The notes beneath the pieces are model-generated. The model searched no databases and was not told where the DNA came from. It saw nothing but the letters and a program-made list of their open reading frames with translations. The translations under genes were made by a program, and so were the position numbers. Positions 19,701 to 60,900 of a stretch of 64,000 nt of DNA are shown here, piece after piece. The stretch is from Thermothelomyces thermophilus ATCC 42464 (lineage: Eukaryota; Ascomycota; Sordariomycetes; Sordariales; Chaetomiaceae), in assembly GCF_000226095.1 (NCBI RefSeq), contig NC_016477.1, forward strand, positions 2,604,001-2,668,000, in the 5' to 3' direction. Numbering within the stretch: position 1 is the stretch's first letter; every line of letters begins with the position of its first letter.

Positions 19701-20148
19701 TGTCACGGATAAGCACATGGGCGGCCTGGCAGGCTGCAGCTAGGACACGGGACATTCCGACAGCCAATCACTCGACGGACCAATTAGAAGATTATCACCG
19801 CCAAGACTAAGGTCTTCACTGGTGATAATAACATGTCACTATTAACAACGTAGAATCACGAAGTGAAAGGAGAAGTAGTACTAGTGATAACTATTAAAGA
19901 AGGACAGACCATTGTATATATATAGCTAGCTAGTCACTCGTTATAGTAGACTCTAGGAGTTCGCTAGTGGTAACAATCATAATCACAGTACTTATACTAA
20001 GTATTGCTAATTACTATAAGAGATAACTCTAAGTGTTGTTATAAACCCTTTAACTTTACCGAATCCCTTAGACGACCTGCCTACTTGTCCCACTTCACCT
20101 ACCTCTGTCTGGACCCTTTTAGAAGAAGTCTGAGTTAGGTTCGTTACA
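19701..20148 (+). repeat. G1 LTR of E1, 5' copy
   Basis: 448 bp, starts TGTCACGG and ends GTTACA (originally GTCACA). Contains the conserved LTR hairpin (TTATCACC...GGTGATAA) and a TATATATA box. Preceded by gctag. Confidence 0.93.
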
Positions 20149-22437: not shown

Positions 22438-25400
22438 CGCCCGCGTAGCGGCAAGTGGTAGCGCAGTATAGGAGGGACTAGCGCAAGAGACCACTATATC
22501 GAGACCTCCCGGTAGAAACATAGGAAATCGCCGCAATCTTTGGACGACGGCGGCAAGACAAGTAACTATAGATAATAGTATAATGGAAATAGCATAAAAT
22601 GCTCGTATTAGTAGATAGTGGAACAGAGATAAACCTGATTTCGCTGACATTTGTAAATTAGCTATAGATACCCTAGAGAATGAAGTAGAAGTATAGCATA
22701 GTCAAAGGGCTATTTCTGACGTAATAGGTACGTAGGGAGACTAAACCGATCGACATCACTATAGCAGGGAAGACTATAGCAGTTGTATTTAGCATTATAG
22801 ATATAGGTAACGACAAAGACATGATATTAGGGTTACTATAGTATAAAGATTACAACCCGGACATTAGCTAAAAGAATAGTAGCTACCTGTGACCCCGAAC
22901 GGAGTCGTATTCGACTAGCAAGATAGGGAGTATACAAGGATTACAAGCAGACAATGCTTAAGGAAAGGCATATCTTACGGATCCACTATAAGAGACGGAT
23001 AGTGGTAGGCAGACTACTACGGACTCTAGAAGAGGCAGCATAACGACATTAATATCGTGACAGGAGGAACGAGCTAAACTACTAATAGCTATTCTCTCCG
23101 TTAACGAATATAGAGTACTATAATTAGAGTAGTAGGTTAAGACAGGAGAAATCGCTAATATCGCTATAGACGGAACTAAGTTTATATACTACTAGAAAAC
23201 CAAGAGACAAGACAAGACTAGGGAAGTACTAAAGGAATACGAAGGACACCTAGCATTCGAACCGAAACATCTAGAAGGACTACTAGAATACGGCCTATAG
23301 GATCACGAGATTAAGCTTAAAGAAGGAACACGACTAAAGTTCTTTAAGATTTACTATACGAGCTAGACATAGAACGAAGAACTTAAGCAATATTTAGAGG
23401 AGAACCTTCGAAGAGGATATATCTACCTGTCGATATCGCTAGTAGGCTACCTAATCCTATTTATGCCTAAGAAAGACAGAAAGCTACGGTTATATGTCAA
23501 CTATCGGCAACTTAATAAACAGACCATGAAAAATCGATACCCGTTACCACTAATCTCATGGCTCTGAGATCAGTTAGTAGGAGCCTAATATTTTACGCGT
23601 CTTGACTTGCTATCGGCCTATAACTATATACAGATCAAAGAAGGCGACGAGTAGAAAACGGCCTTTAGGACACCCTATAGCTACTATAAGTACCTCGTCA
23701 TGCCATTTAGACTTATAAACATGCTAGTAACATTCTAAGCCCTAATTAACCAAGCTATCTAACCCTTTCTCGACAAATTTACGGTATATTATCTCGATGA
23801 TATACTTATCTTCTCTAAGACGATAGATAAACACTAGAAGTACGTGAAAGTAGTGCTAGACGCGCTATACGCGTATAAGCTATTAGTTAACAAGGAAAAG
23901 AGCGAATTCTATATTAGGAAGATAGTCTTTTTAGGATACGAAATATCCCTAGGACAAATCTAGATAGAACCTTTAAAGGTTAAAGCTATTAAGAATTAGC
24001 CCTGACCGATGTTAGTCACGGAAGTATAAAGCTTCATCGGATTTACAAACTTCTACCAAATGTTCATTAGGAACTTTGGAGCAATCGTACGACCTTTATA
24101 CGAACTTACTAAAAAGAACGCTAAATTCCAATAGGAAGAGCGACATAAGCAAACATTTACGCAGATCTATAACGCCATTACTAAGGATCTAGTACTAGTA
24201 CTACTAGACCCTAAGAAGCTATTCGAGGTAGAAACGGACGCTTCAGACTACGCTATCAGAGGATAATTAGGATAACGAGACAAACAAGGGAAGCTATATC
24301 CTATAGCCTTCTTTTTAAAGAAGCTTAATAGACTATGTCTTAATTATCTGATTTATAATAAGGAACTACTTACGATTGTCGAAGCTTTTAAGGAATGGCA
24401 ACTATACCTTAGTAGTATGATTGAACCAGTATAAGTATATACAGATTATAAGAACCTGCGATACTTTACGACGACAAAGGAGCTTAACGGACGACAAATA
24501 TAATAGGCAGAATTCCTTACAGAATTTAACTTTGAGATCCGCTATAAGAAGGGCAAAGAGAACGTACGAGCGGACATCTTAAGCCGACAAATAGATCACA
24601 CGGAAGGATAAACGGGAATAATACTACCGTTGTTTAAGGAACGAATAGACGGAATGCTACATTACGAAACGTAGACACCTGTAGAAGATGATCTACTAGA
24701 CTCGTTCCTAGAATGCTATACAATCTTTCGAGAAGAAAGGATTAACGAGGTATAGTATCAAGCAGTACCTAGACCACTAGTACCTAACGGAGTAGAAGAA
24801 AGAGATGGGAAACTCTAGTACTAAGGCAAAGCATATATCTATAATAAAGACTAATAGCTACGAATGATTCGAGAACTCTATAAGTCGAAACTTGGAGGAC
24901 ATAAAGGAGTTACGAAGACTGTCGTACAAGTTAAGAAATACTACGACTTTCTATAGTTAACGGTACGAGTTAAGGAAGTTGTATAGAACTACGATATCTG
25001 TAATCGGAGTAAAACGGTACGATATAAGCCGTACGGGCTACTTTAGCTACTACTAATAGCTGACAAACTATGGAGTTTAGTCATAATAGACTTTATTACA
25101 AAGCTGCCGGAATCTAAGGATATAGCTATAGGAGTGACCTACGATAGTATTCTTACTATAGTAGATTGCCTAACTAAGTAGGTATACTTCTTTCCTTATA
25201 AGGAGTCCTAGATAGCAGAACAGTTAGTAGACGTAATCTATTGGCAAGTTACATTAGTATATGCTTGGCTATAAGAATAGATCACCGACAGAGACACTAA
25301 GTTCGTATCGAAGTTCTGGCAAGCATTAATATAACGATTAGGCGTTAATAGCAAGCTATTAACGGCATATTACCTGTAGACCGACGGACAAATAGAGTAA

Positions 25401-26186
25401 CTAAACCAAGTTATTAAATAGTACCTTCGCTTTTACGTTAACTACTAGCAAGACGACTAGGTTATACTATTACTAATAGTATAACTCGCTTACAATACAA
25501 CGCCAACAGAAACGACCAAAGTTACACCGTTCTTTACAAACTACAGATATAAAGCAGACCTTAGGCAAGGACTAGAGGTCATAGTGCCGAGAGTAGTAGT
25601 CAAAGCGGAACAAATGTATATACTATATAAAAAGCTTAAAAAGGAACTCGAGTTTGTCAAAACTAGAATAAAGAACTACTACGACAAACATAGGCTCGAG
25701 GGACCTTGCCTAGAGAGGGGAGACAAAGTCTACCTAATCGTACGAAACTTACGAACTAAACGACTAAGCGCGAAGCTAGACTTTAAGAAGGTTAGACCCT
25801 TCGTTATCAAAGAACGAATTTCGACATCTAACTACCGATTATCGTTATTGTCATCTATGTGACTACAGACAGATGTTTTTCATATTTCACTTCTCGAACC
25901 AGTACTAAAGAACGCTAAGGTTATTATATATATCGAAGTAAAGGACAAAGAGGAAGAATAGGACATTAAAGAAATTCTAGATTTATGTATTATTAATAGG
26001 GAACTATAGTACCTAGTTAAATGGCTTGATTTCGGACTAAAAGACAACTTATAGGAACTAGTCAAGAATTTAAACTGCCCTAAGAAACTAGAATAGTTCT
26101 ACCGGCAGAACCCGGATTGACTAAAGGAAAACCTGGGATAGAACCAAAGACGGCGCCCTAGTCGATAGTATCGATGGCATCATTAA
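22402..26186 (+). pseudogene. G1 pol, copy E1
   Basis: Protease (DSGTEIN-like near 22,617), reverse transcriptase (YLDDIL at about 23,790-23,808), RNase H, integrase and chromodomain in the -1 frame relative to gag, ending at TAA 26,184-26,186. Very many in-frame TAG/TAA codons, no net length change against E2 or E5. Not functional. Confidence 0.85.
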
Positions 26187-26190
26187 TCTG

Positions 26191-26638
26191 TGTCACAAAT
26201 AAGCACATGGGCGGCCTAGCAGGCTGCAGCCAGGACGCGGGACATTCCGACAGCCAATCACTTGACGGACCAATCAGAAGATTATCACCGCCAAGACTAA
26301 GGTCTTCACTGGTGATAATAACATGTCACCGTCGACAACGCAGAATCACGAAGTGAAAGGAGAAGTGGTACTAGTGATAACTATTGAAGAAGGACAGACA
26401 ATTGTGTATATATAGCTAGCTAGTCACTCGTTATGGTGGACTCTGGGAGTTCACCAGTGGTAACAATCACAATCACAGTACTTATACCAAGCATTGCTGA
26501 TTACTGTGAGAGACAACTCTAAGTGTTGTTGTGAACCCTTTGGCTTCACCGAATCCCTCAGACGACCCGCCTGCTTGTCCCGCTCAATCCACCTCCGTCT
26601 GGACCCTTTCAGAAGAAGTCTGAGTTGGGTTCGTCACA
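26191..26638 (+). repeat. G1 LTR of E2, 5' copy
   Basis: 448 bp, TGTCAC...CGTCACA. The LTR hairpin occupies 26,282-26,318 and a TATATATA box lies at about 26,407. Only a 27-bp leader separates its end from the gag ATG. I could not identify the tRNA that would prime from the cgttgttaccactccc sequence that follows. Confidence 0.95.
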
Positions 26639-26665
26639 CGTTGTTACCACTCCCTTTGTTCTGTC

Positions 26666-28927
26666 ATGGTTCAGAACGGAGGTGACTTCGACCTCGACAT
26701 CGACATGGCTACCGACGTCACGGCCGAACAGCTGCTCACTTAGCTTGGTCAACTCCAGCAGCGGGTTTAGGAGTTGGACTAGAGAGACAAGGCTGCTCAA
26801 GCTCGAATCAAGGAACTTGAGAACCGCGAAAAGTACTCGCAGAAGTTGGTCAACGAGGCCTACGCCAAAATCGAGGCACTTAAGGGCGCCAAAGCGAAGC
26901 ATATCAAGATCGAACCACCTGGTAAATACAGAGGAACCAAGGAGGATCTCGCAGGATTCCTAACAAACCTCCGATCCTACTTCCGGCTTAATGACGACAA
27001 GTTTCCGGATGACAAAGCCAAAGTCCTCTACGCAGCCACGAGACTAGAGGGCAAGGCACTTAGATGGTTCGAGCCTACGTGGAACGACTATCTCACCAAG
27101 GAAGATGAAGACGACCGAGACGCGTTCACGCAGGCAGTCTTTCGGTCCTACGACCGTTTCGAAGAAGAGCTTCGGAAGGTTTTTGGCGACAAAGACGAGA
27201 AGATTCATGCGCAAGAAAGACTCGCCAATCTCCGACAGACCAAGTCAGCAGCCTCCTATGCCGCACAATTTAGACAGGATATGCTCAAGTCTTAGCTTAA
27301 CGACAAGGCGTTGATGCAATTGTTCTATAACGGCTTGAAGGAAAAGGTCAAGGACAAGCTGTATAAGTACGATCGGCCTAAGACTCTGGATGAATACATC
27401 GTATAGGCCATCAGAATCGATGATCGACTCTACGCACGAGAGTAGTAGAAACGAGGTCGAATGAACGGAACCACGGTTAAGGCCAACGACAAGAAAAAGC
27501 GAGCGTACGTCAGTACTTCGTACGGGACGCACCCCGGAGCCATGGATGTGGACGCAGCGCAGAAGCAGGACCAGAAGAAGACGACCAAAGACAAGTCCAA
27601 TGTTACCTACTACAACTGCGGAAAGAAAGGGCACTACAAGCGAGAATGCCGAAGCCCGAAGAAAGGATGGAAACCAACCCCGGGAAAGGAAATTGCGGCC
27701 ATCGACGAAACCACCAAGGACGTCATCGAAGTAGCGGCCACGAGCTACGAAGACAAGGGCAGTGACACGGACAGTCTCGGACACGACGGCAACGGTGAAG
27801 ACGAATAAGCACCGAACTCCGAACTGGTCACTATGGATCTAGAGACAGGTCTTGCCGAATAGGACATAGTAGGAGAATATGTACCGCTAGCTTCGATTCT
27901 CCTGGCCTTAGGATAGTGGGGTTTCACGGTCACGCAGAGGCGGGATGGATCGTAGACAACCGACACCCAAGGAATCGAAAGACCTGGACCCGATGCTCTA
28001 TTCCTCCAGGAACGAATCGAATGGTACCGTAACGAAGTTTTCCGACTCAACACGGAACTGCGTAAATGGGATGAACGCTTGACTCGACTTGCCTAGCAGA
28101 GCGATGAGATGAAGGACGAAATGAGGGAACTCCGACGTATCGTGGAAACCATCAAAGGAGAATAGCCTGTGACATATGATGGGCCCGATAGCTACACCGA
28201 GCATCTTGACGGCTAGCAACTTAGTAACGACGTGTGGAACCTAGAATACCAGTTTATGCGAGCGAACCGCGGAAAAGACGAACGTACGTGGGAAAGCTAC
28301 TGGAAGAAATACTCCTACCTTAGCATTGGAGTACCTACGGTCTACGTACAATGGGAAGGATTCGGGAAAGAATTCCAATACCTTCTAGGCGACGCCACGC
28401 GACTGTACCCGCGACACGAGGCACATGTATAAGTGCCCTGGTTCCAGTGTGTGGCACACGAATGCCGATATCACTTCCGCGACAAATTCGAAAACAATCA
28501 CTGGCCGACTCGACAGGAAAACAGGGACGGAGACTTGTGCCCTGTGGAATGGGTCTACGATGCAGGAAACAGAGCGGCCGAATTGCTCTGGAAGATCGAA
28601 ACTCGCAATCTAGAAGGCATCACGGTAGTTCCAAAACGAGTCTGGCCTAGGCACTGCGGAACCGGACGAGACACATGGGACTCGTGCTGGAGCAATGATT
28701 GCCTCTATCACGCGGACGAAAAGAAATTGCGAATTCGGGAGCTTTAGACGAAGCTATGGCACGCACGACGGAAAGCAGAACGGACCTAATGGTGGGAAGC
28801 CGCAAGCACTCAATGGCTCACGGAAATGAGCACGATCAACGAAGCCGCTATTAGCCGAACAACCGAAGAGGTCAGTACTGACCTGGGAAACGGGTCAGGG
28901 CCCTTCGAGGGGCCCGGAAACCATTAA
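26666..28927 (+). pseudogene. G1 gag, copy E2, with long C-terminal extension
   Basis: Starts at ATG 26,666 and ends at TAA 28,925-28,927, 753 residues if the premature stops (at least 15, all TAG or TAA from CAG, CAA or TGG) are ignored. The capsid-type gag domain spans about residues 80-290 (GKYRGTKEDL, LRSYFRLND, RWFEPTWNDYL, SYDRFEEELRKVFGD). A CCHC zinc knuckle, CGKKGHYKREC, is at 318-331 region. Beyond it lie ~420 further residues not found in a standard gag: a charged helical part (about 420-500) and a Trp-rich part (about 520-695) with a Cys/His cluster of the form CX4CX2HX8H at about 593-612. The extension keeps its frame and its Cys/His positions in E1 as well. Gag would form the particle; the role of the extension is unknown. 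Confidence 0.88.
28885..28915 (+). promoter_or_regulatory. -1 programmed frameshift signal, gag to pol
   Basis: The heptamer GGGAAAC at 28,885-28,891 is in the slippery phase relative to gag (G GGA AAC). After a 6-base spacer, a GC-rich stem-loop gggcccttcgaggggccc occupies 28,898-28,915. Slipping back one base enters exactly the frame that runs open into protease (…DSGAEIN…) and on to the chromodomain, while gag itself stops 34 bases later. Heptamer, spacer length and stem are the classical layout. The same signal is intact in E5 (61,742-61,772, minus), with the first G changed to A in E1 and E4. Confidence 0.85.
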
Positions 28928-31900
28928 CGCCTGCGTAGCGGCGAGTGGTAGCGCAGTACAGGAGGAACTGGCGTAAGAGACCACTATATCGAGACCTCCC
29001 GGCAGGAACATAGGAAATCGCCGCAATCTTTGGACGACGGCGGCAAGACAAGCGATTGTGGATAATAGCACAGTGGAAACAGCACGAAATGCTCATACTA
29101 GTGGATAGTGGAGCAGAGATAAACCTGATTTCGCTGACGCTTGTGAATCAGCTGCGGATACCCTGGAGAATGAAGCGGAAGCATGGCATAGTCAAAGGGC
29201 TATTTCTGACGCAATGGGTACATAGAGAGACCGAACCGATCGACATCACTATGGCAGGAAAGACTATAGCAGTCGTATTTAGCATTGTAGACATGGGTAA
29301 CGACAAAGACATGATATTAGGGTTACCATGGTATGAAGATTACGACCCGGACATCAGCTAGAAGAATGGTGGCTACCTGCGACCCCGAACAGAGTCGTAT
29401 TCGACCAGCGAGATGGGGAGCGCGCAAGGATCGCGAGCGGACGATGCTCAGGGGAAGGCATGTCCTACGGATCTACCGCAAGAGACGGACAGTGGCAGGC
29501 AGACCACTACGGACTCTGGAAGAGGCGGCATAACGATATCGATATCGCGACAGGAGGAACGAGCTGAATTGCTGATAGCTGTTCTCTCCGTTAACGAATG
29601 TAGAGCATTGCAATTGGAGCAGTGGGTTAAGATAGGAGAAATCGCCAGCATCGCTATGGACGGAACCAAGTTCGCATACTACTAGAAAACCGAGAGACGA
29701 GACAAGACTAGGGAAGTACCAAAGGAATACGAAGGACACCTAGCATTCGAACCAAAGCATCTGGAAGGATTACCAGAACACGGCCCATGGGATCACGAGA
29801 TCAAGCTCAAGGAAGGAGCACGACTGAAGTTCTTCAAGATTTACCACACGAGCCAGACGTAGAACGAAGAACTTAAGCGATATTTGGAGGAGAACCTTCG
29901 AAGAGGACATATCCGCCCGTCGACATCGCTAGCAGGCTACCTAATCCTGTTTGTGCCCAAGAAAGACGGAAAGCTACGGTTATATGTCGACTATCGGCAA
30001 CTCAACGAACAGACCGTGAAAAACCGATACCCGTTACCACTGATCTTACGGCTCTGAGATCAGTTGGCAGGAGCCTAATATTTCACGCGTCTTGACTTGC
30101 CATCGGCCTACAACTATATACGGATCAAAGAAGGCGACGAGTGGAAAACGGCCTTTAGGACACCCTATGGCCACTACGAGTACCTCGTCATGCCATTTAG
30201 ACTTACGAACGCGCTGGCAACGTTCCAAGCCCTGATTGATTAAGCTATCCGACCCTTTCTCGACAAATTTGCGGTATGTTATCTCGACGACATACTCATC
30301 TTCTCCAAGACGATGGACGAACACCGGAAGTACGTGAAAGCAGTGCTGGACGTGCTACACGCGTACAAGCTATCAGTCAACAAGGAAAAGAGCGAATTCC
30401 ACGTCAGGAAAACGGTGTTTTTGGGATACGAGATATCCCCGGGACAAATCCGGATGGAACCTTCAAAGGTTGAAGCCATCAAGAATTGGCCACGACCGAC
30501 GTCAGTTACGGAAGTACAAAGTTTCATCAGATTTGCGAACTTCTACCGGATGTTCATTAGGAACTTTGGAGCGATCGCACGACCTTTGCACGAACTCACC
30601 AAGAAGAATGCTGAATTCCAATGGGAAGAATAACACGAGCAAGCATTCACGCAGATCCGTAACGCCATTACTGAAGACCTAGTACTGGTACTGCCAGACC
30701 CCAAGAAGTCATTTGAGGTGGAAACGGACGCTTCAGACTACGCCATCGGAGGACAATTGGGACAACGAGACGAACAAGGGAAGCTACATCCTGTAGCCTT
30801 CTTTTCAAAGAAGCTCGACGGACCACGTCTCAATTACCCGATCCATGACAAGGAACTGCTTGCGATTGTCGAAGCTTTCAAGGAATGGCGACTATACCTC
30901 AGTGGCACGATTAAACCGGTACAAGTGTATACGGATCACAAGAATTTGCGATACTTCACGACGACGAAGGAACTCAACGGACGACAAATACGATAGGCAG
31001 AATTCCTTGCGGAATTCAACTTCGAGATCCGCTACAAGAAGGGCAAAGAAAACGCACGAGCAGACATCTTAAGCCGACGAACGGATTACACGGAAGGACG
31101 AACGGGAACGATACTACTGTTGTTTAAGGAACGAACAGACGGAACGCTACATCACGAAACGCAGATACCTGTGGAAGATGATCCACTTGACTCGTTCCTA
31201 GAATGCTGCGCAATCTTTCGAGAGGAAAGGATTAACGAGGCATAGTATCAAGCAGCACCTGGACCAGTGGTACCTGACGAAGTGGAAGAGAAAGATGGGA
31301 AACTCTGGTACCGAGGCAAGGCGTACATCCACGACAAAGATCAATAGCTGCGGATGATTCGAGAACTCTACGAGTCAAAACTCGGAGGACACAAAGGAGT
31401 CACGAAGACTGTCGCACAAGTCAAGAAACACTACGACTTTCTACAGTTAACGGCACGGGTCAAGGAAGTCGTACGGAACTGCGACATCTGCAATCGAAGC
31501 AAAACGGCACGACATAAGCCGTATGGGCTACTTTAGCCACTACCAACAGCTAACAAACCATGGAGTTCAGTTACGATGGACTTCATCACGAAGCTGCCAG
31601 AATCCAAGGACACGGCCACAGGAGTAATCTACGACAGTATTCTTACTGTAGTAGATCGCCTGACTAAGTGGGCATATTTCTTTCCCTACAAGGAGTCCTG
31701 GACAGCGGAACAGTTGGCAGACGTGATCTATCGGCAAGTTGCATCAGTGCATGCTTGGCCGCAAGAATGGATCACCGACAGAGACACCAAGTTCGCATCG
31801 AAGTTCTGGCAAGCGTTAATGTAACGATTAGGCGTTAATAGCAAACTGTTAACGGCATATCACCTACAGACCGACGGACAAACGGAGCGACTAAACCAAA

Positions 31901-32676
31901 TCGTCGAACAGTATCTCCGTTCTTACGTCAACTACTAGCAAAACGACTAGGTCATGCTATTGCCAATAGCATAACTCGCCTACAACACGACGCCAACAGA
32001 AACGACCAAAGTCACACCGTTCTTTACGAACTACGGATACGAAGCAGACCTTAGGCAAGGACCAGAGGTCACAGTGCCAAGAGCAGCAGTCAAAGCAGAA
32101 CAGATGTACGCACTGCACGAGAAGCTCAAGAAGGAACTCGAGTTTGTCAAAACCAGAATAAAGAACTACTACGACAAACATAGGCTCGAGGGACCTTGCC
32201 TAGAGAGGGGAGACAAAGTCTACCTAATCGTACGAAACTTGCGAACCAAACGATTAAGCACGAAGCTAGACTTCAAGAAGGTCGGACCCTTCGTTATCAA
32301 AGAACGAATTTCGACATCTAACTACCGACTATCGTTACCGTCATCTATGCGACTACAGACGGATGTTTTTTATATTTCACTTCTCGAACTAGCACCAAAA
32401 AACGCCAAGGTTGCTACGCACATCGAAGCAAAGGACGAAGAGGAAGAATGGGACATCGAAGAAATTCTAGATTCACGCATCATCAACGGGGAACTGCAGT
32501 ACCTGGTCAAATGGCTTGATTTTGGACTAGAGGACAACTCATGGGAACTAGTCAAGAATTTGAACTGCCCTGAGAAACTGGAACAGTTCCACCGGCAGAA
32601 TCCGGATCGACCAAAGGAAAACCCGGGACAGAACCAAAGACGGCGCCCCAGTCGACAGCATCGACGGCATCATTAA
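28892..32676 (+). pseudogene. G1 pol, copy E2: protease, RT, RNase H, integrase, chromodomain
   Basis: One continuous frame, -1 relative to gag, ending at TAA 32,674-32,676. Aspartic protease: LVDSGAEINLIS at about 29,098-29,130. Reverse transcriptase: about 29,930-30,520, with RLDLPSAYN and catalytic YLDDIL (about 30,277-30,300). RNase H: ETDASDYAIGG at about 30,720-30,755, TDHKNL and ADILSRR. Integrase: HX3H-type start (GHKGVT), CDICNRSK zinc-binding pair at about 31,480-31,505, DFITKLPES (first Asp), WITDRDTKF (second Asp), [11 protein letters not shown] (Glu). Chromodomain: about 32,440-32,600 with EEEEWDIEEIL, LVKWLDF and SWEL, including the aromatic residues that grip methyl-lysine. Chromodomains steer integration of such elements into heterochromatin. 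Several RIP stops inactivate the copy, but the domains are otherwise almost unbroken. Confidence 0.93.
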
Positions 32677-32677
32677 T

Positions 32678-33207
32678 CTATGACGAGGGTATAGCAGGCG
32701 TCTCTTGCCGCTCAACCTCCTCCAACTCGTCCAAGGTCGACAGACCACGCGCCACCATGTCGGCACCTTTCTCCACCAAAAACTCCTTCTGCTGACGAAG
32801 ACGCCGGAGCCGCGCAAGCTTTTCGGACAACTCGCGCTAGGCTTCTTCCAGACGGCATTGAGATTCATCTAGCTCAAGTTCGGTACGACGTTTAGCATCC
32901 TTGATACGACGCTGCTCCTGGAGAATGCGATCCATTAGAACGAACATCAGGAATCACATTCAAAGGAAAAAAAAAAAAAAAGAAAAGGAGACGTGCTTAC
33001 AGGAAGAAAGCGGTATGCCAGAGCCATCGTAAAAACGACCTCGACGAACGCAGGCTTCGCAACGCTTATACGTGCGATCATTTTGCAAACGAGGCCTTGC
33101 GACGCGCACCAAGAGCAAGGCATAACGACAAAACCGTTCTTAGCGATGTTCTGAGCAAGGGAAGCACGGTAACGTGTAGAATGCGACTTCCGTTTCTCTA
33201 TCGGCAT
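32678..33207 (-). pseudogene. G1 antisense gene: Gal4-like zinc cluster plus coiled coil, copy E2
   Basis: A spliced gene on the strand opposite gag-pol, between the pol stop and the 3' LTR. Exon 1 (33,001-33,207) starts MPIEKRKS and carries the zinc cluster; all four copies together support the pattern CX2CX6CX8CX2CX6C, that of fungal Zn2Cys6 DNA-binding domains. The donor is GTAAGC at 32,995-33,000. The ancestral acceptor TTCTAG (seen in E5 and E1) is TTCTAA here, with exon 2 at 32,678-32,934. Exon 2 encodes a charged heptad-like helix (LARLRRLRQQKEFLVEKG) and ends DELEEVERQE plus a short tail. This copy also lost one base between the third and fourth Cys, so it is doubly broken. The stop abuts the pol stop tail to tail. 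In E1 the stop codon reads CAG, so the ancestral frame may have run a further ~42 codons antisense to the end of pol. Similar short proteins recur in fungal predicted proteomes as I recall; function unknown. Confidence 0.75.
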
Positions 33208-33334
33208 TTTGTCAACATGGCGACCACGACGCAGAAACAGGGAGAATGCAGTACTCACAAGCGAAGGGTTGTTGGCGCTATTTGAAACGGCCTAAGAGGG
33301 CTTTCGGGTCGAAAGCCTTGAAGGAGGGGCATCG

Positions 33335-33782
33335 TGTCACGAATAAGCACATGGGCGGCCTGGCAGGCTGTAGCCAGGACGCGGGACATTCCGACAGCCA
33401 ATCACTTGACGGACCAATCAGAAGATTATCACCGCCAAGACTAAGGTCTTCACTGGTGATAATAACATGTCACCGTCGACAACGTAGAATCACGAAGTGA
33501 AAGGAGAAGTGGTACTGGTGATAACTATTGAAGAAGGACAGACAATTGTATATATATAGCTAGCTAGTCACTCGTTATGGTGGACTCTGGGAGTTTACCA
33601 GTGGTAACAATCATAATCACAGTACTTATACCAAGCATTGCTGATTACTGTGAGAGACAACTCTAAGTGTTGTTATAAACCCTTTAGCTTTACCGAATCC
33701 CTCAGACGACCCGCCTGCTTGTCCCGCTCAATCCACCTCCGTCTGGACCCTTTCAGAAGAAGTCTGAGTTGGGTTCGTCACA
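33335..33782 (+). repeat. G1 LTR of E2, 3' copy
   Basis: 448 bp. Preceded by a purine tract AAGGAGGGG a few bases upstream (probable polypurine tract) and by a perfect hairpin GGCTTTCG/CGAAAGCC at about 33,299-33,317. Followed by atctg. Confidence 0.95.
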
Positions 33783-33784
33783 AT

Positions 33785-34311
33785 CTGTAACAAGGGCATA
33801 GTAGGTATCTCTTGCTGCTTAACCTCCTCTAACTTATCTAAGGTCGATAGACCACGCGCTACTATATCGGCACCTTTCTCCACCAAAAACTCCTTCTGCT
33901 AACGAAGATACTAGAGCCGCGCAAGCTTTTTGGATAACTTACGCTAGGCCTCTTCTAGACGGCATTAAGATTTATCTAGCTTAAGTTCGGCACGACGTTT
34001 AGTATCTTTGATATAATGCTACTCCTAAAGAATACGATCTACTAGAACGAACATTAGGAATTATAGTAAAAAAAAAAAAAAAAAAAAGAGGAGACAAGCT
34101 TATAGGAAGAAAGCAGGATGCCAGAGCTATCGTAAGAACGACCCTGACGAACATAGGCCTCGTAACACTTTATACGCGCGATTATTTTACAGACAAGGCC
34201 TTGCGACGCGTACCAAGAGCAAGGTATAACAACAAAACCATTCTTAGCGATGTTCTAAGCAAGGGAAGCACGGTAACGTGTAGAATACGACTTCCATTTC
34301 TCTATCGGCAT
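33785..34311 (-). pseudogene. G1 antisense zinc-cluster gene, copy E1
   Basis: Exon 1 34,104-34,311 (208 bp) and exon 2 33,785-34,041. No indel in exon 1, so the spacing of the six Cys positions is the ancestral one, although several read Tyr. The donor GTAAGC is ATAAGC. The codon at the usual stop is CAG, and E2 inserted exactly here, cutting the frame from its possible continuation before 26,190. An A-run of about 18 lies in the intron. Confidence 0.7.
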
Positions 34312-34438
34312 TTTGTTAGCATAGCGACCATGATATAGAAATAGGGAAAATACAATACTCACAAGCAAAGGGTCGTTAGCGCTATTTAAAACGACCTAAG
34401 AGGGCTTTCAGGTCGAAAGCCTTAAAGGAGGGGCATCG

Positions 34439-34888
34439 TATCACGGATAAGTATATAGGCGGCCTGGCAGGCTATAGCTAGGACACGGGACATTCCGATA
34501 GCCAATCACTCGACAGACCAATCAGAAGATTATCACCGCCAAGACTAAGGTCTTTACTGGTGATAATAACATGTCACCGTCGATAACGCAGAATTACGAA
34601 GTGAAAGGAGAAGTGGTACTAGTAATAACTATTGAAGAAGGATAGACCATTGTATATATATAGCTAGCTAGTCACTCGTTATAGTGGACTCTGGGAGTTT
34701 GCTAGTGGTAACAATTACAATTATAGTACTTATACCAAGCATTGCTAATTACTGTAAGAGATAACTCTAAGTGTTATTGTAAACCCTTTGGCTTTACCGA
34801 ATCCCTTAGACGACCTGCCTACTTGTCCTGCTTTACCTACCTCCGTCTGGACCCTTTTAGAAGAAGTCTGAGTTGGGTTCGTCACAGC
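34439..34888 (+). repeat. G1 LTR of E1, 3' copy
   Basis: About 450 bp, starting TATCAC (TGTCAC after RIP) and ending TCGTCACA, followed by gctag, which matches the duplication before the 5' LTR at 19,701. Confidence 0.93.
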
Positions 34889-35200: not shown

Positions 35201-35653
35201 TATAACGAACCCAACTTAGACTTCTTCTGAAAGGGTTCAGACGGAGGTGAATTAAGCGGGACAAGCGTGCAGGTCGTCTAAGGGATTCGGTGAAGCCAAA
35301 GGGTTTATAACAACACTAGAGTTGTCTCCCACAATAGTCAGTGATGCTTGGTATAAGTACTTGTGATTGTAGGTTAGGTTGCTATCACTAGTAAACTCCC
35401 AGAGTCCACCATAACAAGTGACTAGCTAGCTATATATATACAATTATCTATCCTTCTTTAATAGTTATCACCAGTACCATTTTTCCTTTCGCTCTGTGAT
35501 TCCGCGTTGTTAACGGTGATATGTTATTATCACTAGTGAAGACCTTAGTCTTGGCAGTGATAATCTTCTGATTGGTCCGTCAGTGATTGGCTGTCGGAAT
35601 GTCCTGCGTCCTGGCTGTAGCCTGCCGGGCCGTCTATGTGCTTATCCGTGACA
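35201..35653 (-). repeat. Solo LTR of gypsy G1, inside the LINE
   Basis: A lone 453-bp G1 LTR in reverse orientation, flanked by the 5-bp duplication ggccg (35,196-35,200 and 35,654-35,658): an insertion followed by LTR-LTR recombination. It shares small diagnostic differences with the E5 LTR (a gtaggttaggttgctatc variant) rather than with E1, E2 or E4, so it belongs to the same G1 subgroup as E5. Removing it restores the LINE frame. Confidence 0.93.
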
Positions 35654-48712: not shown

Positions 48713-49674
48713 TAAGCTAGTATTAACCTTCTAAGGCACTACTTAGCACCTCTAAAACTAAACCTCTATCTGGTCAGATAGGGAAGAGCCTCGGCTTAAA
48801 ATGTCTAGGGCGTCCGAGTATTCGCGGTTATAGTAGGCAAGTCCGACCATCTAGATTGCAATGACAATAGGGGCAAAGGTGGCGATAACGATGTCCCTTT
48901 GGACAGATATAGAAGAGTCTACTTACGTAGAAAAAGATACTCTAACTTATGAAAGAAAGAAGAACTATATCCTGCTACTCCAATCTATTAGAGCAAACAA
49001 GTGTTAAAAGCTATCTTGTTATTCTTGTCTCTCTTGTCTAGTGCCCCTAGGTAGGTAACCCCTATTTATACCTATCGTATATAACAAAGCTCTATAGAGC
49101 TAGAAAAACAAAACGACAAACCCTATATAACTATATCTACCCCCTTCTCTACTAGGAACTCTCGTTATTTACGAACCTAAGTCAGATAGGCTAACGCCTT
49201 AGAAGCTTTATATTAATATTCCCATAACAAGGCTTTAGCCTCTTTCTCTTTAGCCTTTAAATGACGTTACTCGCGTATAATACGATCTACTACGTTACGA
49301 TTAGAGACGTACCCTCATAAGAAAATGGGAACTTACAAAAAGAAACTAGAACGCCGGAACTATCGTAAGCACGACCCCGACGTATATAAGCCTCGTAGCG
49401 ATAAGAGTTTTTAATCATTTTATATACTCGGTTGTACTCTGTGTAATAGGAACACGCTATCACTATAAACCTATAATCGGAAATAAACTAAGCTAAACGC
49501 TTACGACAAATAGACACTAGGGATCTACGTACGTTAGATGGCATAATTGACAGTATAAAGGGCAATAAGAGGCTAAGGAGAAAAATATATACAAGGAACG
49601 TAAGGGATGTTAGCGCTATTTAAACTATACCCTATATCCTTCTAGTTATATGAAGAACTTCTAGCCCTAGTCTA
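48713..49674 (-). repeat. G2 LTR, 5' copy, long form
   Basis: 962 bp. Matches the 3' LTR in two blocks (48,713-49,114 and about 49,626-49,674) separated by ~510 bp that the partner lacks. The extra block holds a diverged copy of the G1 antisense zinc-cluster gene. Short similar sequences (TATAGGGT...) flank the extra block, so it may have been lost from the 3' LTR by recombination or gained here. Confidence 0.7.
49115..49544 (-). pseudogene. Diverged zinc-cluster gene inside the G2 5' LTR
   Basis: Minus strand, starting ATG at 49,542-49,544. Exon 1 aligns with the G1 antisense protein: an ACSYYTEYNRVYKMI-type stretch, then YEAYIRRGRAYD, in which the six zinc-binding positions keep the CX2CX6CX8CX2CX6C spacing, with all but the first Cys turned to Tyr by RIP. 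A GTAAGT donor follows at the equivalent place, and exon 2 starts after an acceptor-like GTAG with VDRII. It includes REFLVEKGVDIV and breaks off at the equivalent of ARGLS, so the acidic C-terminus is missing. It runs in the same direction as G2 pol, unlike the antisense arrangement in G1. Confidence 0.65.
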
Positions 49675-50464: not shown

Positions 50465-50910
50465 TGTCACGGATAAGCACATAGACAGCCTAGCAGGCTA
50501 TAGCCAGGACACGGGACATTCCGACAGCTAATCACTTAACAGACCAATTAGAAGATTATCACCACCAAGACTAAGGTCTTCACTAGTAATAATAACATGT
50601 CACCGTCAATAACACGGAATTACAGGGTGAAAGGAGGAATAGTACTAGTAATAACTATTAAAGAAGGACAGATAATTATATATATATAGCTAGCTAATCA
50701 CTTATTAGGTAGACTCTAAAAGTTTACTAGTAGTAATAATTACAATTACAGTACTTATATTAAGCATTGCTAATTACTATAAGAGACAACTCTAATATTG
50801 TTATAAACCCTTTAGCTTTACCAAATCCCTCAGACGACCTGCCTACTTATCCCGCTTAATCTACCTTTGTCTGAACCCTTTTAGAAGAAGTCTAAGCCAG
50901 GTTTGTTATA
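50465..50910 (+). repeat. G1 LTR of E4, 5' copy
   Basis: 446 bp, TGTCACGG...TTGTTATA (from CGTCACA). Carries the LTR hairpin in degraded form. Confidence 0.9.
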
Positions 50911-56874: not shown

Positions 56875-57328
56875 TGTGACGAACCCAACTCAGACTTCTT
56901 CTAAAAGGGTTCAGACGGAGGTAAATTAAGCGGGACAAACGTACAGGTCGTCTAAGGGATTCGGTAAAGCCAAAGGGTTTATAACAACACTAGAGTTGTC
57001 TCCCACAATAGTCAGTGATGCTTAGTATAAGTACTTGTGATTGTAGGTTAGGTTGCTATCACTGGTAAACTCTTAGAGTCTACTATAACGAGTGACTGGC
57101 TAGCTATATATATATAATTATCTGTCCCTCTTCAATAGTTATCACTAGTACCATTTCTCCTTTTACTCCGTGATTCCGCGTTATCGACGGTAATATGTTA
57201 TTATCACTAGTAAAGACCTTAGTCTTGGCAGTAATAATCTTCTAATTGGTCTATCAAGTGATTAGCTGTTAGAATATCCTACGTCTTAGCTATAGCCTGC
57301 CAGGCTATCTATATACTTATCCGTAATA
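56875..57328 (-). repeat. G1 LTR of E5, 3' copy
   Basis: 454 bp in reverse orientation, TGTGACG...CCGTAATA (from CCGTGACA). Inserted after aaaac in E4 pol. Confidence 0.92.
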
Positions 57329-57455: not shown

Positions 57456-57979
57456 ATGCCGATAGAGAAGCGGAAGTCGTATTCTATACGTTACTATGCT
57501 TCCCTTGCTTAGAATATTGCTAAGAACGGTTTTGTCGTTATGCCTTGCTCTTGGTGCGTGTCGCAAGGCCTTGTCTGCAAAATGATCGCGCGTACAAAGC
57601 GTTACGAAGCCTACATTCGTCGAGGTTGTTCTTGCGATAGCTCTAGTATACCGCTTTCTTCCTATAAGCATGTCTCCTTTTTTTTTGAATGTAATTCCTA
57701 ATGTTCGTTCTAGTAGATCATATTCTCTAGGAGCAGCGTCGTATCAAGGATGCTAAACGTTATACCGAACTTGAGCTAGATAAATCTTAATGCTGTCTAG
57801 AAGAAGCCTAGCACAAGTTGTCCGAAAGGCTTATACGGCTCCGGCGTCTTCGTCAGTAGAAGGAGTTTTTAGTAGAGAAAGGTACCGATATAGTAGCACG
57901 TAGTCTATTAATCTTAGACGAGTTAGAGGAGGTTAAGTAGCAAGAGCGGTAAGAGGTACCTACTATACCCTCGTCATAG
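57456..57979 (+). pseudogene. G1 antisense zinc-cluster gene, copy E5
   Basis: The best guide to the ancestral gene. Exon 1 57,456-57,663 (208 bp, MPIEKRKS start, MPCSWCVSQGLVCKMIARTK, then the second Cys pair and RRG-C). The donor is ATAAGC (from GTAAGC). The intron has a T-run and a CTAAT branch-like site; the acceptor TTCTAG is intact at 57,708-57,713. Exon 2 57,714-57,979 encodes the coiled-coil part and has three extra codons near its end compared with E2. The joined phase is open apart from RIP stops. The frame is opposite to gag-pol of E5 and overlaps neither pol nor the LTR. Confidence 0.75.
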
Positions 57980-57980
57980 A

Positions 57981-60900
57981 TTAATAATACCGTCGATGCT
58001 ATCGACTAGGGCACCGTCTTTAGTTCTATCCTAGGTTTTCCTTTAATCGATCTAGGTTCTGCCGGTAGAACTGTTCCAGTTTCTTAGGGCAGTTCAAATT
58101 CTTAACTAGTTCCTATAAGTTATCTTCTAGTCTAAAATCAAGCTATTTGACTAGATACTATAGTTCTCTGTTGATAATACGTAAATCTAGAATTTCTTTG
58201 ACGTCCTATTCTTCTTCTTTGTCCTCTACTTTAATGTACGTAGCAATCTTAGCGTTCTTTGGTACTAGTTCGAGAAATAAAATATAAAAAACATCCATCC
58301 GTAGTTATATAGATGACGGTAACGATAGTCGATAGTTAGATATCAAAATTTGTTCTTTGATAACGAAGGGTCTGATCTTCTTAAAGTCTAGCTTCGCGCT
58401 TGGTCGTTTGGTTCGCAAGTTTCGTATGATTAGGTAGACTTTGTCTCCCCTCTCTAGGCAAGGTCCCTCGAGCCTATGTTTATTATAGTAGTTCTTTATT
58501 CTGGTTCTGACAAACTTAAGTTCCTTTTTGAGCTTCTCGTATAATGTATACATTTGTTCTGCTTTGACTGCTGCTCTTGGCACCGTAACCTCTGGCCCTT
58601 GCCTAAGGTCTGCTTTATATTTGTAGTTTGTAAAGAACGGTATAACTTTAGTCGTTTCCGTTAGCGTTATATTATAAGCGAGTTATGCTATTAGCAATAG
58701 TATGACTTAGTTGTCTTGCTAGTAGTTGACGTAAAAACGAAGGCATTACTTGATAACTTAGTTTAGTCGCTCCGTTTGTCCATTAGTCTGTAGGTAATAT
58801 GCCGTTGACAGCTTGCTATTAATGCCTAATCGTTGTATTAACGCTTGCTAGAACTTCGATACGAACTTGGTGTCTCTATTGGTGATCTATTCTTATAGCT
58901 AAGTATATACTGATGCGACTTGCCGATAGATCACGTCTACTAACTGTTCAGCTATCTAGGACTCCTTATAGGGAAAGAAGTATACCTATTTAGTTAGGCG
59001 GTCTACTATAGTAAGAATACTATCGTAGATTACCCCTATAGCCGTATCTTTAGATTCTAGCAGCTTTATAATAAAGTCTATCGTAACTAAACTCTATAGT
59101 TTGTCGGCTATTGGTAGTGGCTAAAGTAGCCTATATAGCTTATATCGTGCCGTTTTGCTTCGGTTGTAGATGTTGTAGTTCCGTATGACTTCCTTAACTC
59201 GTGTCGTTAGCTATAGAAAGTTATAATGTTTCTTGACTTATACGACAGTCTTCGTAACTCCTTTATATCCTCCAAGCTTCGACTCGTAGAGCTTTCGAAT
59301 CATTTGTAGCTATTGGTCTTTATCGTAAATATATACTTTGCCTCAGTACCAGAGTTTCCTATCTTTTTCTTCTACTTCGTTAGGTACCGCTAGTCTAGGT
59401 GTTGCTTAATACTATGCTTTGTCGATCCTTTCTTCTCGAAAGATTACGTAACATTCTAGGAACGAGTCGAGTAGGTCATCTTCTACAGGTATCTACATTT
59501 CGTAATATAGCGTTCCGTCTATTCGTTCCTTGAATAACGGTGGCGTTGTTTCCGTTTGTCCTTCCGTATAATCCGTTCGTCGGCTTAAGGCGTCTGCTCG
59601 TATATTCTCTTTGCCCTTCTTATAGCGGATCTCAAAATTAAATTCCGTAAGGAATTCTACCTATCGTATTTGTCGTCTATTAAGCTCCTTTGTCGTTGTA
59701 AAGTATCGCAAGTTCTTATAATCTATATATACTTATACTGGTTCGATCGTGCTACTAAGGTATGGTCGCCATTCCTTAAAAGCTTTAACAATTATAAGTA
59801 GTTCCTTATCGTAGATCAGATAATTAAGACATAGTCTATCAAGCTTCTTTAAAAAGAAGGCTATAGGATATAGCTTCCCTTATTTGTCTTATTGTCCTAA
59901 TTGTCCTCCGATAGCGTAGTCTAAAGCGTCTGTTTCTACTTTAAATAGTTTCTTAGGATCTAGTAGTACTAGTACTAGATCTTTAGTAATGGCGTTGCGG
60001 ATCTACGTAAATGCTTACTTATATTACTCTTCCTATTAGAATTTAGCGTTCTTCTTTATAAGTTTGTATAAAGGTTATATAATCGCTCTAAAGTTCCTAA
60101 TGAACATCCGGTAGAAGTTTGTAAACCTAATGAAACTTTGTACTTCTGTGACTAACGTTAGTTATAGCTAATCCTTGATAGCTTTAATCTTTAAAGGTTC
60201 TATCCAGATTTGTCCTAGGGATATCTCGTATCCTAAAAACACTGTCTTCCTAACGTGGAATTCGCTCTTTTCCTTGTTAACTAATAGCTTATATATATAT
60301 AACGCATCTAGTACTGCTCTTACATGCTTCCGGTGTTTGTCTATCGTTTTAGAGAAGATAAGTATATCGTCGAGATAATATACTGTAAATTTGTTAAGAA
60401 AGGATTAGATAGCTTGATTAATTAGGGCTTAGAACGTTGCTAGCGTGTTTGTAAGTCTAAATGGCATGACGAGGTACTTATAGTGGCTATAAGGTATCCT
60501 AAAGGCCGTTTTCTACTCGTCGCTTTCTTTGATCCGTATATAGTTATAGGCCGATAGCAAGTTAAGACACGTGAAATATTAGGCTCCTGCTAACTAATCT
60601 TAGAGCTATAAGATTAGCGGTAACGGGTATCGGTTTTTTATAGTCCATTCGTTAAGTTACCAATAGTTAATGTATAACTATAGCTTTCTATCTTTCTTAG
60701 GCATAAATAGGATTAGGTAGCCTGTTAGCGATGTCAATAGGCAGATATATCCTTTTTAAAGATTTTCCTCTAAGTATCGCTTAAGTTCTTCGTTTTATAT
60801 CTAGCTCGTATAGTAAATCTTAAAGAACTTTAGTTATACTCCTTCCTTAAGCTTAATCTCGTAATCCTATGGGCCGTGTTCTAGTAATCCTTCTAGATGC

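Follow-up and report, generated by a model that had tools for sequence, protein, structure and literature searches.

Why would a gypsy retrotransposon carry, on the strand opposite pol and between pol and its 3' long terminal repeat (LTR), an apparently spliced gene for a cysteine-rich protein? The question arises from a stretch of 64,000 bases in the 38.7 Mb, seven-contig genome of Thermothelomyces thermophilus ATCC 42464 (the window; positions 2,604,001-2,668,000 of contig NC_016477.1), where a sequence-only reading had recognized such a gene in three copies of one gypsy element and proposed that it encodes a Zn2Cys6 DNA-binding protein, perhaps controlling the element's own LTR, or pol by antisense transcription. 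Passages of PMC7264820 on the antisense genes of LTR retrotransposons give their function as not known. On balance we consider it fairly probable that, through the gene studied here, the element encodes a Gal4-like regulator of its own LTR, and that this gene and the adjoining unique 3' (U3) part of the LTR are inherited together as an exchangeable cassette.

A two-exon antisense gene conserved as a protein

In the window copy, the gene has the following parts.

33207-32552, minus strand: full frame of the antisense gene, in two exons, between pol and the 3' LTR
33001-33207, minus strand: exon 1, from the start ATG at 33207, encoding a basic N-terminal part and the six-cysteine cluster (placed by hand at about 33117-33029)
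32935-33000, minus strand: intron of 66 bases, with donor GTAAGC at 33000 and an acceptor that reads AA in this copy
32552-32934, minus strand: exon 2, encoding a predicted long helix and an acidic DWGAVF tail, up to the stop TGA at 32554-32552

The window copy is broken by a one-base deletion in exon 1, the change of the acceptor AG to AA, and in-frame stops. In this copy the frame meets a premature stop at 32678, where the gene had first been taken to end; when intact it continues to 32552, its last ~125 bases overlapping the end of pol, whose stop codon ends at 32676. The antisense two-exon frame as such is real, with its start, its GTAAGC donor and a TTCTAG acceptor found in the other 29 of the 30 genomic copies read, 18 of which encode one identical, uninterrupted two-exon protein of 196 residues; the remaining 12 are broken. 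These 18 intact type A copies are near-identical and represent a single recent burst rather than 18 independent facts. To judge by the splice signals, the gene is probably spliced as the two-exon model has it. Several mis-spliced or truncated pieces of the gene stand in the host annotation under the label hypothetical protein, among them MYCTH_105130 and MYCTH_66448; the NCBI proteins that we labelled P0005, P0015, P0063, P0066, P0070 and P0073 are such pieces.

The copies fetched from the genome fall into five types, A (the G1 of the sequence-only reading), B, gamma, delta and epsilon, so that the gene is indeed present in related elements; the two genome-wide match lists, each with more than 150 matches counted exon by exon, are lower bounds, and the copies examined are those fetched. 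The proteins of types A and B share 50% identity, and over 163 codons their genes differ at 63 first, 57 second and 106 third positions (chi-square p = 2e-8), with a nonsynonymous divergence (dN) of 0.51, a saturated synonymous divergence (dS) of ~4, and dN/dS of ~0.13. The type B copy compared is nearly intact, its one stop lying in the tail outside the compared stretch, and the ratio was taken from A versus B, the intact type A copies all encoding one identical protein. The third-position bias and the dN/dS of ~0.13 indicate that selection acts on the protein, and are signs of the purifying selection that the sequence-only reading had set as a check. A chance open frame was rejected on the strength of the homologues, the codon-position bias and the invariant cysteines. 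It is also highly improbable that the antisense RNA itself regulates, through double-stranded RNA or copy-number control, with the protein frame secondary: a transcript of the gene would be antisense to the last part of pol over the ~125-base overlap, but conservation of the protein and its six cysteines across genera is not expected of an RNA function.

An epsilon-type homologue gave 159 matches genome-wide (a lower bound, counted exon by exon), and most of those listed hold several TAG or TAA stops, as repeat-induced point mutation (RIP) would leave. Earlier waves of the elements, it seems, already had the gene on board. An intronless type delta was considered and given up; the delta frame seems to continue through an intron that keeps it open.

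Membership in the BRTN family

Searching fungal proteins with the translation, as had been suggested, was productive. A search with the single T. thermophilus protein returned 15 proteins, some from the same genome, an alignment-based search at least 107, and an alignment including distant homologues at least 199, the Botrytis protein P0125 (UniRef 'Putative BRTN'; 1.8e-48 with profile A5) among them. Genera among the matches listed include Chaetomium, Canariomyces, Corynascus, Verticillium, Colletotrichum, Metarhizium, Pyricularia, Pseudogymnoascus, Hymenoscyphus and Botrytis, which we take to be Sordariomycetes and Leotiomycetes, and the six-cysteine motif occurs in 165 of 204 related proteins, many of the rest being fragments. 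The T. thermophilus protein aligns with P0125 colinearly over nearly its whole length (BLASTP 6e-14, 25% identity), and profile-profile comparison of its group with the BRTN group gave 100% and 1.8e-41; the Botrytis protein has the six cysteines with spacing X2-X6-X9-X2-X6. By homology, the gene belongs to the BRTN family and is not a new kind of gene, and the isolated novelty first seen in G1 does not stand, several types in the genome carrying it as well. The antisense gene that Boty-like gypsy elements of Botrytis cinerea carry is reported under the name BRTN (Zhao et al. 2011, as cited in passages of PMC7264820, PMC8365987 and PMC4227169), and a passage of PMC5987419 also names it.

In a tree built from proteins only (the element context was read in the DNA of this genome, and homologues of other fungi as proteins), type A groups with Chaetomium, Canariomyces and Corynascus, type B with Staphylotrichum and Corynascus, and type epsilon with Canariomyces, all with starred support; the placement of delta is uncertain. 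Modules may have been transferred horizontally. A captured host gene confined to one element was rejected, given the several element types here and the proteins of other fungal genera, and a search of viral contigs gave no relative.

A Zn2Cys6-like cluster

Zn2Cys6 domains (PF00172) have the spacing CX2CX6CX5-12CX2CX6-8C, and their first loop is usually RRxKxK. The T. thermophilus protein combines basic N-terminal residues, six cysteines spaced X2-X6-X8-X2-X6, which fits this pattern, a helical exon 2 and the DWGAVF tail. Across 44 aligned family sequences the six cysteines and a following aspartate are invariant, and the first cysteine half of the family is highly variable. The model of a homologue shows a pair of short helices, with a strand or turn after each, and then a long helix. 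Like Gal4-type factors (PF00172), the family thus shows the cysteine spacing, the modelled short helices, the long helix that follows and a possible acidic tail; unlike them, the T. thermophilus protein is without a large regulatory domain, lies antisense in a retroelement, and in type A has a first loop other than RRxKxK.

The T. thermophilus protein had no Pfam Zn_clus match up to E 10, and its relative P0007 scored 16 bits, below the cut-off of 21; eight of the 44 family members gave weak Zn_clus matches (up to E 0.1; best 0.0011). A profile of eight Zn2Cys6 domains from the host aligned cysteine on cysteine (E 0.0022, at a probability of only 12.8). Sequence searches of solved structures returned no Zn2Cys6 entry, and structure searches returned weak matches only. 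Of the original Zn2Cys6 assignment, the cysteine spacing stands and the fold is weakly matched, but a Zn_clus match for the T. thermophilus protein is missing; we describe the protein as probably Zn2Cys6-like on spacing and weakly matched fold, rather than as a filed PF00172 member. The acidic DWxAVF tail has a likeness to the activation domain of Gcn4, and of the 165 proteins with the six-cysteine motif, 117 have a loose, DWxxV-like pattern in the tail, where shuffling the tails gives 25.

Gene type and U3 type are paired

The antisense gene sits in the window element as follows.

26191-33782, plus strand: type A gypsy element, delimited by LTR boundaries and target-site duplication, with LTR-LTR differences and repeats
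26191-26638, plus strand: 5' LTR, its U3 at about 26191-26406
32074-32676, plus strand: 3' end of pol (integrase end and chromodomain), up to the stop codon
33208-33334, minus strand: leader, from the 3' LTR to the antisense gene
33335-33549, minus strand: type-specific U3 of the 3' LTR; GGTGATAA occurs in it, on one strand or the other, at 33426, 33455 and 33517
33335-33782, plus strand: 3' LTR

Gene type equals the type of the adjoining U3 in 56 of 57 places, the remaining one (W49) having no adjacent U3. The places comprise 33 of type A (the 30 loci L009-L038, L076, and window copies 2 and 3), 9 of B, 1 of gamma, 3 of delta and 10 of epsilon, plus W49, several locus ids for one place being counted once; L010, L043, L046, L071 and L072 supplied the reference sequences and agree by construction, leaving 51 other places. 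Most A places stem from one recent burst, so the independent evidence for pairing is the five types. L082, counted under epsilon, has a delta-like gene fragment (1-438) upstream of a complete epsilon U3-gene module (1180-2148), apparently as nested or tandem elements. The proposed control of the element's own LTR gains from this pairing, which is consistent with it though short of proof.

The U3 of type A holds GGTGATAA three times, and all 11 occurrences in the 64 kb of the window fall inside type A U3s; that of type B holds a repeated GGATCAC, with GATCAC six times. Since the motifs in our GTGAT-type counts had been picked after viewing the U3s, we relied on a test of the commonest k-mer against 1000 dinucleotide shuffles. 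For the commonest 7-mer the p values were 0.038 (A), 0/1000 (B), 0.069 (gamma), 0.96 (delta) and 0.069 (epsilon), the gamma and epsilon signals being slightly stronger under single-base than under dinucleotide shuffles; for the commonest 6-mer they were 0.30, 0/1000, 0/1000, 0.44 and 0.027 in the same order. The U3 repeat signal is thus clear in type B and has support in A at 7-mers and in gamma at 6-mers; it is weak in epsilon and absent in delta.

Exchange of the 3' module between element backbones

The pol ends of the types share 80-96% identity (12 copies compared), with 95% between A and B (dS 0.175, dN 0.015 over 429 codons) and 94-96% between A and delta. Their U3s share 62-78% (A-B shuffles: mean 64, maximum 70), those of B, gamma and epsilon being mutually related above shuffle level and those of A and delta not, and the gene outside its pol overlap shares 61-66% in five type pairs, within the shuffled range. 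Along the A-B alignment, identity is 90-100% over most of the R-U5 remainder of the LTR, 38-62% in U3, 100% in the leader and 40-67% in the gene, and it climbs to 80-100% from the pol stop codon onward; the 72 LTR-proximal bases of the leader are 99-100% identical between A and B and 82-85% between A and delta. Pol and R-U5 are thus common to the types, and the leader to A and B. Judged by these divergences, the gene types are older than the pol history that they share, which argues that the 3' module has been exchanged between element backbones.

The pairing of gene and U3 could also come about by linked hitchhiking, an explanation that we regard as unlikely. The protein would then have another role, such as a cDNA or RNA chaperone, an integration tether or a factor for nuclear import, with U3 merely co-travelling when recombination in reverse transcription, at a point close to the 3' end of pol, carries along all that lies downstream. 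In its favor, just ~130 bases separate gene from U3, the A/B similarity breaks at the pol stop codon as expected of a template switch there, and in gamma the similarities of U3 and of gene do not run in parallel; passages of PMC7264820 report some antisense proteins to be nuclear without a known DNA target. Hitchhiking would, however, need more than one exchange or a strong constraint to account for the near-identical 72-base A/B leader between unrelated neighbours, a point limited by the lower identity of the A and delta leaders; the identical leader is mildly against one simple transfer, and constraint on the leader is also possible. Also against hitchhiking are the repeated motifs in U3-A and U3-B and a first cysteine half that varies as a specificity region would.

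A proposed self-encoded regulator of the LTR

In the self-encoded regulator that we favor, a small, probably dimeric zinc-cluster DNA-binding protein would recognize short motifs that recur within its own lineage's U3 and so regulate transcription from the LTR; activation or anti-silencing is the likelier role, repression the less likely. Antisense transcription of the gene would proceed from the side of the 3' LTR, so that one U3 type would drive gag-pol at the 5' LTR and the regulator at the 3' LTR, and U3 and gene would form an operator-regulator cassette moved between element backbones. Activation or anti-silencing is preferred to repression only because of the acidic DWxAVF tail and the analogies with the plant protein VANC and with HBZ of human T-cell leukemia virus type 1 (HTLV-1). 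Several points weigh against such a regulator: the proximity of U3 and gene could by physical linkage alone maintain the pairing, the gamma U3 resembles those of B and epsilon yet the gamma protein is closest to A, and the delta U3 has no repeat signal.

The mode of action separates two further possibilities. VANDAL is a plant DNA transposon, and its protein VANC offers the model for an anti-silencing role, here quite doubtful, in which the protein would bind clustered non-coding motifs and lift silencing without being a classical activator. In passages of PMC5735166, VANC is encoded by the transposable element (TE), and its targets are often tandem repeats that vary between related TEs. The motif clusters of U3-A and U3-B and the divergence of the types form a similar pattern, and many host copies carry RIP-like changes and stops, but the remaining types show weak repeats or none.

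Lambdoid phages, for their part, carry immunity modules with escape from resident repression. By analogy, the protein might be a repressor or immunity factor that silences its own LTR type, new U3-gene types escaping the resident copies; the genome does carry, on related backbones, five U3-gene cassettes that all differ from one another, as selection for hetero-immunity would give, but the C-terminal acidic tail resembles an activation domain (117 of 165 proteins against 25 shuffled, for the loose pattern), and we hold this role to be decidedly unlikely. A broader formulation, in which antisense Gal4-like protein and U3 operator make up a swappable immunity or activation cassette that reassorts like the regulator-operator modules of temperate phages, provides every lineage with LTR control of its own and accounts for the function of BRTN, is put forward tentatively.

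Relation to known systems

BRTN of Boty shares with the T. thermophilus gene the antisense position between pol and the 3' LTR (for Boty, according to a passage of PMC7264820), colinear homology over nearly the whole protein and six cysteines, and differs in having 25% identity and a third spacer of X9 rather than X8; the exon-intron model, the U3 repeats and the U3-gene pairing were examined for the T. thermophilus element alone. Among plant gypsy elements, gene23 of Grande, RIRE2 and ORF4 of Retand are likewise antisense between pol and the 3' LTR, and the Grande antisense product is nuclear (passages of PMC7264820); as a difference, the word zinc is absent from the text of that paper. With VANC of Arabidopsis VANDAL, the common features are TE-encoded, diverging proteins and lineage-specific repeated non-coding motifs (passages of PMC5735166), although binding is shown there and the present element is known from sequence alone.

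Among the matches listed, and with the original BRTN paper outside the scope, we found no paper joining Zn2Cys6, an antisense retroelement gene and U3; PMC9409477 proved a false match. Neither the family's zinc cluster nor the cassette of U3 and gene came up in the literature thus searched. That the zinc-cluster protein is inherited along with a U3 of matching type suggests a concrete, testable function, namely self-encoded, lineage-specific LTR control. If true, such control would match, in a eukaryotic retroelement, what immunity modules are in phages and VANC is in plants, would explain the coexistence of related elements in one genome, and would supply naturally occurring pairs of protein and operator with new specificity, drawn from a family with a highly variable first cysteine half.

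Type A elements and gene copies in the window

The window element is flanked by the 5-base target-site duplication ATCTG (26186-26190 and 33783-33787), and its LTRs of 448 bases differ at 12 positions, every one a transition, the type of change that RIP produces. Pol domains were called on the young type A copy L010, whose pol end contains integrase zinc-binding, SH3_Tf2-1 (Tf2-1-like SH3) and Chromo domains. Besides the three type A gene copies already noted, the window holds a fourth, divergent remnant.

33782-34311, minus strand: second type A gene copy, exon 1 at 34311-34105 and part of exon 2 at 34042-33782, cut by the insertion of the younger element; its U3 at 34653-34441
57456-58003, plus strand: third type A gene copy, with U3-A at 57116-57324 and pol on the minus strand at 58106-59405
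49114-49544, minus strand: remnant of a divergent gamma-type gene, with no LTR adjoining

Further type A LTR copies lie at 19701-20144 and, in opposite orientation, 35205-35653, beside neither of which an antisense gene was found in the window, and a separate type A LTR at 50465-50896 stands apart from the gamma-type remnant. An older, more mutated type A copy (24762-26190 and 33783-34884) is split by the younger window element, whose insertion point is the antisense gene of that older copy.
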